Shown in pieces: positions 49,171 through 52,487 of a DNA stretch of 64,000 nucleotides. The notes beneath the pieces were generated by a model. The model saw only the letters and a list, made by a program, of their open reading frames with translations. It did no database searches and was not told the DNA's origin. Every line of letters starts with the position of its first letter. Position 1 is the stretch's first letter. This stretch comes from an uncultured Clostridia bacterium. Lineage in GTDB: Bacteria; Bacillota; Clostridia; UBA1381. Location of the stretch: assembly GCA_947624485.1 (NCBI GenBank), contig CANQKM010000005.1, positions 124,001 through 188,000 of the forward strand, read 5' to 3'. The position numbers were made by a program, and so were the translations under genes.

Positions 49171-49199
49171 TTGCAAAATATGTAAAAATTTGTTATAAT
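49171..49199 (+). promoter_or_regulatory. Sigma-A promoter of the channel operon
   Basis: TTGCAA and TATAAT with a 17-bp spacer on the plus strand, 63 bp upstream of the first gene. The -35 boxes of this promoter and the divergent GH2 promoter are only about 20 bp apart. Confidence 0.8.
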
Positions 49200-49262
49200 A
49201 TGTTTAATACGCTGTTTTACATTTTTATTTAAGGGGGGAAAGCGCGGAAAACGCGCGGATAT

Positions 49263-50348
49263 ATGAAACGTGTGGTTTTTGAAAAATGGCAGATCAAGAA
49301 GCTGCTCGCATGGTTTCTCGGCTTCGTAATCATAGGCGGCGGGTACATATGCTATACCACGTACACGCTCTACCGGGACAAGTCCGCCGAGGAGTATTAC
49401 TGGCAGAAAAATATGCTCGACCGTGAGGCGGAGGCTATCGGCGCGCAGCAGGTCGGCGCGGAGACGACGCGCGTGTTTACCGGCACGTATCTCGAAAGCG
49501 TCAAGGAGGTTGCTCTGCGCAGCAGCTATTACCGCGTCGTGTGCAGCATATGGTTCCGCTGGAAGGGCGACGACGACCTCGATATGGTAAACAACTTCCA
49601 TATCTACAACGGCACGACGAACAAGCTCGAGGTCATGGAGGACACGATGATAAACGGCTGGCACTATCAGCGCTGCCGCCTCGACGTGACGGTGAACAAC
49701 GATTTCTGGACGGTGCGTTTCCCGCTCGAGTCGCATCAGATGCGTTTCTACATAGAACCGAATATGCCGGCTAAAAGAGTTACTCTCGAAAAGGACGGCG
49801 ACAACAGCTCGTACAACCCGAATATAGGCATACCCGGTTTTTACATTGTGCGCCACGACACGGCTGAATTTACGCAGGTATACGACACGTCCTACGGCAA
49901 AAACAGTGACGATGAGATAACGTCGGAATTTATGACGCAGCTTGAGATCAACAGAAGTGGTCTCGGTTTGTACGCGAAGTGCTTTATCGCGCTGTTCGGC
50001 ACGTCGCTGTGGGTGTTTATAACGATGTTCCTCTGCACGTACCACCGCGTGGATCCGCTCAGCATGATTCCGGCGGCTCTTTTCGGTACTGTTTCAAACA
50101 TCATGGTCGGCGCGAACCTTCTCCCCGACGCGCTCGAGATAGGCTTGCTCGAATACGTCAACGCGTGGGGTATATTTACCATAATAGCCGGCGCGCTGAC
50201 TATAATCAACATAAACCGAATACGGAACAAGCACGGCGATAACAGGTTTGCCGCGCTGTTCGGACGCGTAATGAGCTTTACGCTGATGTTTATAGTTATA
50301 CTCGGCCATATACTCATGCCGCTGTCGGCGTATATGGCGACGGTATGA
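49263..50348 (+). CDS. Pentameric ligand-gated ion channel-like membrane protein
   Basis: 361 residues. An N-terminal membrane anchor (about 13-31) leads to a beta-rich outer domain (about 60-232) and four closely spaced C-terminal helices (about 236-258, 266-287, 299-320, 333-353), the topology of pLGICs such as GLIC and ELIC plus one extra N-terminal helix. Supporting motifs: SIWFRWKGDDD where the family has a Trp/acidic strand; FWTVRFPLESHQMRFYIE, which matches the pro-loop FPxDxQ signature with Glu for Asp; a conserved-position Arg231 before M1; and an M2-like helix ending in NLLPD. The ribosome site is unusual: a G6 tract is separated from the ATG by a small GCGCG hairpin. First of four coupled genes. 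Assigned by pattern only. Confidence 0.65.
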   Translation: MKRVVFEKWQIKKLLAWFLGFVIIGGGYICYTTYTLYRDKSAEEYYWQKNMLDREAEAIGAQQVGAETTRVFTGTYLESVKEVALRSSYYRVVCSIWFRWKGDDDLDMVNNFHIYNGTTNKLEVMEDTMINGWHYQRCRLDVTVNNDFWTVRFPLESHQMRFYIEPNMPAKRVTLEKDGDNSSYNPNIGIPGFYIVRHDTAEFTQVYDTSYGKNSDDEITSEFMTQLEINRSGLGLYAKCFIALFGTSLWVFITMFLCTYHRVDPLSMIPAALFGTVSNIMVGANLLPDALEIGLLEYVNAWGIFTIIAGALTIININRIRNKHGDNRFAALFGRVMSFTLMFIVILGHILMPLSAYMATV

Positions 50349-50371
50349 TTTCGGAAAGGAGAATTGGGGTT

Positions 50372-51100
50372 ATGAAGGATTATGCTATCGGTCTTGTTTC
50401 GGTAAAATGGAGCTTCGGCAGAATAGTTTTGCTCGTTATTCTCGCTGCGCTCAGCCTGCTTATACAGAAATACATATCCGCGAATCCATATCTGCCGCTG
50501 TGGCTCGACGGCTTCGGACCGTTTTTCGCGGCGGCTGTGGACGGTCCGGTATTCGGCGCGGCTGTGTCGGTGCTGTGGCTTATATTGAGCATTGCCGTGA
50601 ACGGCTTTTCGGTACACTCGTTTTTGCTGATACTGATGTTCGCGATAATGGCGGCGATATTCGGAGCGATGTTCCGTCTCGGATTTTTCGGTAACAGGAA
50701 AACCGTTCCGTTCGCGTTCGCGGTGCTGATTTTGGTCGATACTTTAACGGCGGTCGCGACAAGCATGGCTCTTTACGGAGAGTCGACGTTCACAAATATT
50801 ATAACGACGTTCATTCACGGTCTTATGACCTCGCTCGGGGTACACGGACTTATAGCCGGAACGGTGTCGTATATGGCGGCAAGCATTGTGGATAAGGCGA
50901 TCATTATCGCGGTTATTTTCCTGATATTTAAGGTCATGCCGCAGAAGGCTGCCGATTTCTTCCTCATAAGCAAGAAAATCCCCGTCGCCGTATTCGCGGA
51001 AACGAAGGAGGACGCGGAGTTCCGGGAAGAGGCGGACAAGCTTAAGCATAACGCTCAGGAAAAAATAGAGCAGAAGAAAAGCGCGGAGGCGGTAAAATGA
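50372..51100 (+). CDS. ECF S-component-like membrane protein (first copy)
   Basis: 242 residues with five or six transmembrane helices in the first 195, then a charged, probably helical tail rich in Lys and Glu. The segment PLWLDGFGPFFAAAVDGPVFGAAVSVLW resembles the core of ECF transporter S-components and of the S-like domains of some membrane sensors. There is no ATPase or EcfT gene nearby. The ATG at 50372 is used because AAAGGAGA precedes it; the earlier ATG that overlaps the previous stop has no ribosome site. Its stop overlaps the K+ channel start (ATGA). Confidence 0.6.
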   Translation: MKDYAIGLVSVKWSFGRIVLLVILAALSLLIQKYISANPYLPLWLDGFGPFFAAAVDGPVFGAAVSVLWLILSIAVNGFSVHSFLLILMFAIMAAIFGAMFRLGFFGNRKTVPFAFAVLILVDTLTAVATSMALYGESTFTNIITTFIHGLMTSLGVHGLIAGTVSYMAASIVDKAIIIAVIFLIFKVMPQKAADFFLISKKIPVAVFAETKEDAEFREEADKLKHNAQEKIEQKKSAEAVK

Positions 51101-51855
51101 GAGAACAGATAAGTAACGTCATTTACGGTCAGAAAACAAAGGGCCGTTCGACCGTGTACTACGACTGGTTCATAATGGTTGTGGCGATCGCGAGCGTTGT
51201 GCCGATGATGTTCCGCGGCGAGCTTTCGACGTGGATGCAAACGCTTGAATCGATCACGGTCTACATACTGTTTTTTGACTATATTTTGAGGTGGATGACG
51301 CATGATTTCAGAATGAAAAACCACTCGATATGGGCGTTTTTCATCTACCCGTTCACGCCGCTCGCGATTATGGATATAGCGGGTATACTTCCGACGCTTG
51401 GGCTGCTGCCGCCGACCTTTATGATTCTGAGGGTGCTGCGCCTTGTAAAGCTCGCGCAGTACTCGCAAAGCTGCAGACGCGTCATGAACGTGTTCCGCAG
51501 TCAGGCGAAAACGCTCTGCTCGGTGCTTATAATCGCGATAGCGTACATATTTATATCGGCGCTTGTGATGTTCGTGCATGAGCCTGCCGATAACTTCCCG
51601 ACGTTTTTCGACGCGCTCTACTGGGCGACGACGGCTCTCACGACCGTCGGCTACGGCGATATTTACCCCGCGACGCAGATAGGGCGGTTCATAAGCATGG
51701 TTTCCTCGCTTCTCGGAATAGCCGTAATCGCGATGCCTGCCGGTATCGTTACGGCGGGCTTTATGGAGGAGCTTAACAAGGACTTAGCCGAAAAGGAGAG
51801 GGAAAAGGAAAACAAAGAGAACGGGGAAAAGGAGGATGCTTCCGATGAAAAATAA
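51097..51855 (+). CDS. Voltage-gated-type potassium channel (six TM)
   Basis: 252 residues. Six transmembrane helices with an S4-like helix having Arg/Lys every third residue (RVLRLVK at about 112-118, more basic residues to 128), a pore helix and the canonical filter TTVGYGD at 182-188, then S6 with a likely glycine hinge. The C-terminal tail of about 25 residues is a highly charged helix; no RCK or cyclic-nucleotide domain is present. It should be a K+-selective, voltage-sensitive tetramer. It overlaps the preceding gene by 4 bp and the next by 11 bp. Confidence 0.92.
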   Translation: MREQISNVIYGQKTKGRSTVYYDWFIMVVAIASVVPMMFRGELSTWMQTLESITVYILFFDYILRWMTHDFRMKNHSIWAFFIYPFTPLAIMDIAGILPTLGLLPPTFMILRVLRLVKLAQYSQSCRRVMNVFRSQAKTLCSVLIIAIAYIFISALVMFVHEPADNFPTFFDALYWATTALTTVGYGDIYPATQIGRFISMVSSLLGIAVIAMPAGIVTAGFMEELNKDLAEKEREKENKENGEKEDASDEK

Positions 51856-52450
51856 GACGCTGCAAAAGTATCTCGTTATTATGCTTGCCGGAATAGTCCT
51901 CAATCTCGGTCTTTACTGGCTCGCGCATATTTTACATATCCCGGCGTGGTTCGACACCGTGGGAACGGCGTACGCCGCCGTTACGCTCGAACCGGCGGCG
52001 GGGCTTATTATAGCCTATCTCACAAACCTTTTTGAGTCGAACGCCGTTTACGCGAGCAACTCCATAGTTTATTACGCGATAGCGGCTCTGTGCGCGCTTT
52101 TGTTCGGACTTATGCTTCGCAAGAACGGCAAGGTCTCATGGAAAAAGCTGCCGCTTGCAGCCGTAATTTACGTGGCCGCGGCGTCACTTTTGTCGGCGGC
52201 TATTACGATGTGGCGCACGGGCGCGCCGAACAGCGGCTGGGAGCTTGTATTTTTCAGCGCGGCAAGGTCGCGCGGTGTTTCCGTGTTCTTCTCCGCGGCG
52301 TTCGGAGCGGGAGTGCTGAAAATCATAGACACAGCCGTGCTGTGCGTGCTGCTGCCGATTTTGTATAAGGTAACGCCGAAACGGTTCAAAAACGAGTATT
52401 ACAAGGAAAAACTCACATGGAAATCTCCGTTTAAGGAAAATACAAATTAA
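51845..52450 (+). CDS. ECF S-component-like membrane protein (second copy)
   Basis: 201 residues, about five transmembrane helices. The segment PAWFDTVGTAYAAVTLEPAAGLIIAYLTNL is a closer match to S-components (W-x-D-T-x-G-T, AA, P-x-x-G, TNL) and parallels the segment in the first copy. The start is the ATG at 51845, placed nine bases after GGAGG, inside the end of the K+ channel gene. A perfect terminator follows. The ligand is unknown. Confidence 0.65.
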   Translation: MKNKTLQKYLVIMLAGIVLNLGLYWLAHILHIPAWFDTVGTAYAAVTLEPAAGLIIAYLTNLFESNAVYASNSIVYYAIAALCALLFGLMLRKNGKVSWKKLPLAAVIYVAAASLLSAAITMWRTGAPNSGWELVFFSAARSRGVSVFFSAAFGAGVLKIIDTAVLCVLLPILYKVTPKRFKNEYYKEKLTWKSPFKENTN

Positions 52451-52453
52451 AGC

Positions 52454-52487
52454 AAAAAGCTTGAAGCCGCGCGGCTTCAAGCTTTTT
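52454..52487. terminator. Perfect-palindrome bidirectional terminator
   Basis: A 34-bp perfect palindrome (17 bp per arm, AAAAAGCTTGAAGCCGC and its complement) ends in A and T runs. It separates the channel operon from the convergent trpEG operon; the trpG stop codon begins at its edge. Confidence 0.93.

Follow-up and report, generated by a model that had tools for sequence, protein, structure and literature searches.

What would bring a receptor-type ion channel, a potassium channel and proteins resembling transporter S components together in one bacterial operon? The question is raised by a 64,000-nucleotide stretch of DNA from an uncultured Clostridia bacterium (GCA_947624485.1, contig CANQKM010000005.1, positions 124,001 to 188,000; hereafter the window), a piece of a 199-kb contig from a genome of 2.7 Mb. 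Four open reading frames (ORFs) for membrane proteins lie head to tail on the + strand at 49263-52450, as an initial annotation had described, with a beta-galactosidase-like gene on one side and convergent trpG/trpE-like genes on the other (neighbours named by eye). By profile and model evidence, gene 1 (49263..50348, +; 361 amino acids) encodes a predicted receptor channel resembling the pentameric ligand-gated ion channels (pLGICs). Gene 2 (50372..51100, +) encodes an S-component-like membrane protein that is a diverged relative of the gene 4 product, gene 3 (51097..51855, +; 252 amino acids) a voltage-gated-type K+ channel recognised by Pfam and PDB profile matches, and gene 4 (51845..52450, +; ~201 amino acids) a membrane protein predicted to take the S-component fold.

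The genes are closely packed. The ORF of gene 2 opens at 50345, and the start common to relatives is the ATG at 50372 behind AAGGAG, leaving 23 bases after gene 1; the gap is thus short, as first noted, and one base shorter than the 24 bp given then. The later junctions do overlap, by 4 bases between genes 2 and 3 and by 11 between genes 3 and 4, the latter counted from the gene 4 start common to relatives (51845; ORF open from 51836). Where genes 1, 3 and 4 occur as a trio, 16-27 bases separate genes 1 and 3 and genes 3 and 4 overlap by 4-14 bases (8 loci measured of 10 seen). Since other genomes repeat the gene order with equally short gaps, the arrangement is more than a chance alignment of genes.

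Assignment of gene 1 to the pLGIC superfamily

Conserved residues, profile comparison and a structural model together place gene 1 in the pLGIC superfamily. The initial annotation had called the protein pLGIC-like and had named a model resembling something else as the outcome that would speak against it; in a Foldseek search with the AlphaFold model of gene 1, all 50 matches listed were pLGICs. The predicted layout comprises an N-terminal membrane helix (~14-36), an extracellular beta domain (~63-230) and four helices, M1-M4 (~233-360), with limits taken from the AlphaFold secondary structure and by eye. The beta-sandwich and four helices that make up the overall pLGIC fold are therefore present, in a model of poor quality.

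An alignment of the 17 intact copies, including that of the window, revealed residues typical of the superfamily. The pro-loop motif reads FPLES at residues 153-157 (49719..49733, +), and F153 and P154 are invariant in all 17 copies, in agreement with the F/Y-P-x-D pattern of known members, in which the proline is absolutely conserved (PMC4795631). The acidic position, E156, varies (E/D/G/S). Every copy has F or Y at position 193, the beta9 aromatic, which aligns with a tryptophan of GLIC. Also invariant are R231, which hhalign pairs with the pre-M1 arginine of GLIC, and P288 in the M2-M3 loop. Identity to GLIC amounts to ~17% over 207 aligned columns.

Several observations on gene 1 count against the functional reading given below. 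The AlphaFold model was built from five alignment rows and has a mean confidence (pLDDT) of 45, and its superpositions are loose, with TM-scores of 0.25-0.38 and root-mean-square deviations of ~10 Å or more. The M1 proline is absent from all 17 copies (G246 lies nearby in 16), and the M2 0′ position is not basic, being occupied by D264 in 16 of the 17 (0′ in the GLIC register, -1′ if this is shifted by one residue). Across the superfamily the M1 position is P in 77% and G in 5% of sequences, and 79% have a basic residue at 0′ (PMC4795631); as neither feature is universal in known members, their lack does not exclude gene 1. The GLIC register also puts L and P at inner M2 positions, giving an unusually greasy pore, and a shift of one residue places S, A and F there instead. 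Finally, the gene 1 profile matched ELIC weakly (E 0.039, probability 1.3%) and also matched two acetyltransferases (E 0.22-0.34).

Profiles alone gave matches: searches of Pfam, NCBIfam and, with the single sequence, the PDB returned nothing useful for gene 1. Pfam Neur_chan_LBD had no significant match in the gene 1 family (best E 0.061, in one of nine members), and searching the window's own genome and 199 genomes of the phylum with this model gave no match; as the control genomes gave none either, that negative carries no weight. A divergent solo paralogue of gene 1 (L067:1981-3099; 32% identity) differs in the first half of M2, where it has a serine in place of the 6′ proline of the other copies (GLIC register).

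The K+ channel and the S-component-like proteins

Gene 3 belongs, judged by its sequence, to the Kv-type (voltage-gated) K+ channels. It matches Pfam Ion_trans (E 3.2e-23) and Ion_trans_2, and its best PDB profile match is K+ channel subfamily B member 1 (E 3.5e-25). The TVGYGD signature recognised in the initial annotation lies in a TTVGYGD selectivity filter at residues 182-188, which, together with the predicted S4 charges R112-R115-K118, is invariant in all nine alignment rows.

Genes 2 and 4 belong to the S-component-like proteins, as also originally claimed, with family scores below the curated cut-offs. Gene 2 matches weakly (PF12822, E 5e-4; NF045596, E 0.005). Gene 4 matches NF045596, named putative ECF (energy-coupling factor) S component, more clearly (E 3.6e-14), with 52.8 bits against a cut-off of 180, and its predicted model takes the S-component fold. 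Among the loci examined, gene 2 is present only in families f1 and f54.

Weaker relatives of the S-like proteins were found in several contexts. Some are the membrane domain at the N-terminus of HD-domain signalling proteins (L083:1450-3570, L096:1-2073, L099:1399-3555), and one is the N-terminal domain of a two-component regulator propeller protein (L086:1-2100). Another (L087:176-3536) adjoins EcfT and EcfA-like genes, with a purine nucleoside phosphorylase-like gene upstream (named by eye), a hint that nucleosides may be substrates of the S family. EcfT (PF02361) is encoded in all 20 genomes checked, of which 17 have gene 1 and the other 3 carry genes 3-4 alone. The S-component fold is known both in transporters and as the receptor domain of histidine kinases (PMC11109136). 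Given relatives that signal, the presence of EcfT and a fold used in both roles, gene 4 could be a sensor or an importer. The earlier suggestion that the S-like proteins present or import a ligand therefore holds in part: import is one option, in a family that also supplies the membrane part of signalling proteins.

A three-gene unit conserved in Clostridia

Relatives of gene 1 (matches at E <= 0.001, several of them fragments) were found in 10 of 70 genomes of the family, and a search of 95 genomes of the order returned the identical ten. Matches were also present in 10 of 391 genomes of the class and in 10 of 67 from the order of genome G461. A phylum sample of 398, which includes some genomes of the same class, gave one match, the window's own genome, and no relative turned up among the viral contigs scanned. 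Six relatives lie in named genomes; five of these are 'Lapin' (French: rabbit) metagenome-assembled uncultured Clostridia, and the sixth is another Clostridia bacterium.

In 14 of the 17 intact copies (the window, G028, G008, G004, G461, G237, G345, G283, G346, G880, G881, G882, G884 and G885a), genes 3 and 4, or 2, 3 and 4, follow gene 1 directly; these loci bear five family labels (f1, f19, f53, f57 and f77), and in G346 gene 3 carries a frameshift. Six further loci retain the same order with a damaged gene 1 (G024, G025, G005, G023, G301 and G239), the last two adding a sixth family, f54. Two weak fragments in G049 (E ~1e-4), remnants in G428 and G022 and a truncated copy at L030 were kept outside the intact counts. 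The widely conserved unit is thus one of three genes (1, 3 and 4), with gene 2 optional. Adjacency in other Clostridia, which the initial annotation had proposed as a check, was borne out in many other genomes, gene 2 taking part in families f1 and f54. Neither of the two outcomes that would have spoken against the initial reading, a gene 1 model unlike a pLGIC or a cluster confined to this genome, was thus observed.

The genes around the unit vary between loci and include a LytTR two-component system, an acetyltransferase with a sugar kinase, a tRNA-modification gene, murA and a GGDEF-EAL gene, among others (ten neighbours scanned with Pfam; murA and the f1 neighbours named by eye). The GGDEF-EAL gene (L066:5440-6987, genome G885) starts 26 bases downstream of gene 4, which may connect the module with cyclic-di-GMP.

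Selection and decay

Pairwise ratios of nonsynonymous to synonymous substitution (dN/dS) against the window copy were 0.016-0.092 (gene 1), 0.043-0.068 (gene 3), 0.10-0.24 (gene 2) and 0.155-0.198 (gene 4), values that are rough because dS exceeds 1 in the two farther pairs. Eleven of the 12 comparisons gave 0.2 or less, the twelfth being the 0.24 of gene 2, and of the three comparisons made, gene 1 had the lowest ratio in two and came second lowest in the other. Gene 1 is thus under strong purifying selection where intact, yet it is often damaged.

Loci L019 and L022 have in common an in-frame deletion of 264 bases in gene 1 (~50000-50263): matched blocks end at 49999 and restart at 50252-50253, with 11-12 bases common at the junction. 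The deletion takes out ~residues 247-334, which span the latter half of M1, M2, M3 and the loop leading to M4. On either side of the operon, L019 and L022 remain ~90-93% identical to the window. As two genomes share it, the deletion was likely inherited; an assembly error, considered for the internal deletions, is unlikely in this case. The module seems to be useful in some settings and dispensable in others.

Internal deletions recur in the operon (L019:4384-4395, L022, L048:7589-8056, L023:4653-4794 and L105:5903-6317). That in L048 fuses genes 1 and 2, and that in L023 is a near-complete collapse of the operon.

Proposed function and alternatives

The function we favour, while giving it a little less than an even chance, is that of a ligand-triggered electrical signalling unit in gut Clostridia. 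Gene 1 would form a homopentamer whose outer domain, as in its family, serves to bind a luminal small molecule or ion of the gut. Binding would open the pore and cations might enter and depolarise the cell, a direction faintly suggested by the acidic ring of D264 at the inner mouth, with the M2 register uncertain by one residue. Depolarisation would then open gene 3, as its family would lead one to expect, and the K+ leaving would reset or shape the voltage signal. Gene 4 could be a ligand-binding membrane partner that handles the same small molecule or a related one, by sensing or by presenting it, acting mainly with gene 3 in view of the tight pairing of the two, and gene 2 would here be a second, diverged copy of that partner. 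A fuller version, which we consider rather doubtful, is a one-operon bacterial excitable module: the receptor-type channel, a member of the superfamily that includes the neurotransmitter receptors, would serve as chemical input, the Kv channel as repolarising output and the S-fold protein as a 'transceptor' that hands over or senses the ligand, so that gut commensals could respond to a lumen metabolite with a voltage signal.

The tightest pair in the cluster is that of genes 3 and 4, and it suggests another arrangement, in which an S-fold ligand-sensing subunit gates the K+ channel directly and the pLGIC-like protein supplies a third, optional input, perhaps by sensing and contacting the K+ channel without itself conducting ions. 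We take this to be a serious, if unlikely, contender. In the class sample an S-like match was found in 48 of 291 genomes; the 12 with E below 1e-60 all adjoin gene 3, and 7 of these have any gene 1, broken in 2. The overlapping frames of genes 3 and 4 in the 8 three-gene loci measured, and the receptor role of S-fold domains in histidine kinases (PMC11109136), also agree with such a pair. Against it stand the low dN/dS of gene 1, the position of 14 of 17 intact gene 1 copies directly upstream of genes 3-4 or 2-3-4, and the next gene 4 relative (G167), which is damaged and has no gene 3 beside it.

Other findings count directly against the signalling unit we favour. In genus g42, five of six matched genomes (G109, G143, G196, G323 and G357) carry genes 3-4 but no gene 1. 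In the sixth, G283, gene 1 adjoins a murA-like gene; the five share that flank and retain part of the upstream sequence (322 bases aligned in L103 and L104, ~240 in L100-L102), which also fits a gene 3-4 core. Three intact gene 1 copies stand alone (G885b, G852 and G893; L067, L068 and L069). In four of the six damaged loci (L020, L022, L047 and L048), gene 3 is full length beside a broken gene 1, a pattern not expected of an obligate circuit. The genes diverge in step (r 0.90-0.96 over 12 loci), but this may reflect shared ancestry only.

We think it improbable that genes 2 and 4 encode standard substrate-capture proteins of the ECF type, which would import a vitamin- or nucleoside-like compound with the help of the energising module shared in the cell, while the channels only balance ions or volume. 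EcfT in every genome checked, the name of NF045596 and the relative beside EcfT and EcfA-like genes would suit such a role. However, gene 4 scores far under the NF045596 cut-off, no ECF module gene could be picked out by eye from the ORFs at 45.7-56.3 kb, several related domains occur within signalling proteins, and we know of no reason for a nutrient importer to need a pLGIC and a Kv channel. A neutral cluster heading for loss, its genes adjacent without function, is very improbable: internal deletions or stops do occur at many loci, but dN/dS is at most 0.2 in all but one comparison, and the identical gene order recurs amid differing neighbourhoods. Most implausible of all is a receptor channel serving chemotaxis, a role that Tasneem et al. 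(PMC549065) proposed for the first bacterial pLGICs from domain context. CheW (PF01584) was found in 2 of 16 genomes with an intact gene 1, 12 of them at least 90% complete, and in none of the 4 from the window's own family; as most carriers checked thus have no CheW, a CheW-dependent pathway was dropped from consideration.

Relation to known systems

Like GLIC, ELIC and DeCLIC, gene 1 has a predicted beta-sandwich outer domain, a pro-loop FP, a pre-M1 arginine, an M2-M3 proline and four C-terminal helices with a short M3-M4 loop; unlike them, it apparently retains its N-terminal membrane helix, has no M1 proline and carries an acidic 0′ residue. Gene 3 shares with Kv2.1, KCNQ and KvAP the predicted six-helix layout, the S4 arginines and the TVGYGD filter, and differs in adjoining an S-fold gene (in loci found via gene 1 or gene 4). 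The predicted fold of gene 4 is that of ECF S-components and of the 5TMR sensor kinases (PMC11109136), to which it is distantly related in sequence, whereas it is encoded beside ion channels; the words 'channel' and 'potassium' are absent from the main text of that paper.

Bacterial operons of a pLGIC with a type II periplasmic binding protein (PBP-II), a Cache protein or a Na+/H+ symporter have been described (Tasneem et al., PMC549065). As here, a pLGIC gene is accompanied in these conserved operons by the gene of a separate ligand-binding protein and, once, by that of an ion transporter; the partners in the present operon are instead a Kv channel and an S-fold membrane protein. Among the papers listed in searches of the open-licence literature, none reported a pLGIC together with a Kv channel or an S-fold protein, or an S-component with a K+ channel, in line with the initial statement that no described system of this composition was known. 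Each part is of a known kind; what is new to us is their combination and this divergent subfamily of pLGICs.

To our knowledge, few bacterial pLGICs have an identified natural ligand or cellular role. A pLGIC family kept with a Kv channel and a ligand-binding-type membrane protein offers a concrete physiological setting, in bacteria of the mammalian gut, and the operon ties a fold known from transporters and sensor kinases to ion channels.

Candidate control elements

The initial annotation had assigned the four genes one promoter and one terminator. A promoter-like site upstream of gene 1 (TTGCAA-17-TATAAT with a TG before the -10 box; 49171..49199, +), identified by its 10 of 12 consensus matches, is retained with small changes in aligned close relatives, which agrees with the first half of that claim; such sites are not enriched in the region (7 found, 4.2 +/- 2.0 expected). 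As to the second half, a terminator-like hairpin (52454..52487; 15-pair stem) separates gene 4 from the trpG-like gene that converges on it. The scan lists this hairpin for the - strand only, and terminator-like sites in the region are not above chance (6 found, 5.4 +/- 2.3 expected). As its 3′ arm on the + strand ends in a T run, the hairpin could serve both the operon and the trpG-like gene.

Between the start codon of gene 1 and a Shine-Dalgarno-like stretch rich in G (49233-49238), the sequence could form a perfect five-pair GC hairpin with an A-rich loop (GCGCG-GAAAA-CGCGC; 49242..49256, +). The GCGC arms are kept and the loop varies in five of six aligned sequences spanning the site (the window, L025, L026, L027 and L029), the hairpin being absent in L028. 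Because the arms persist while the loop letters change, this element may tune translation of gene 1.

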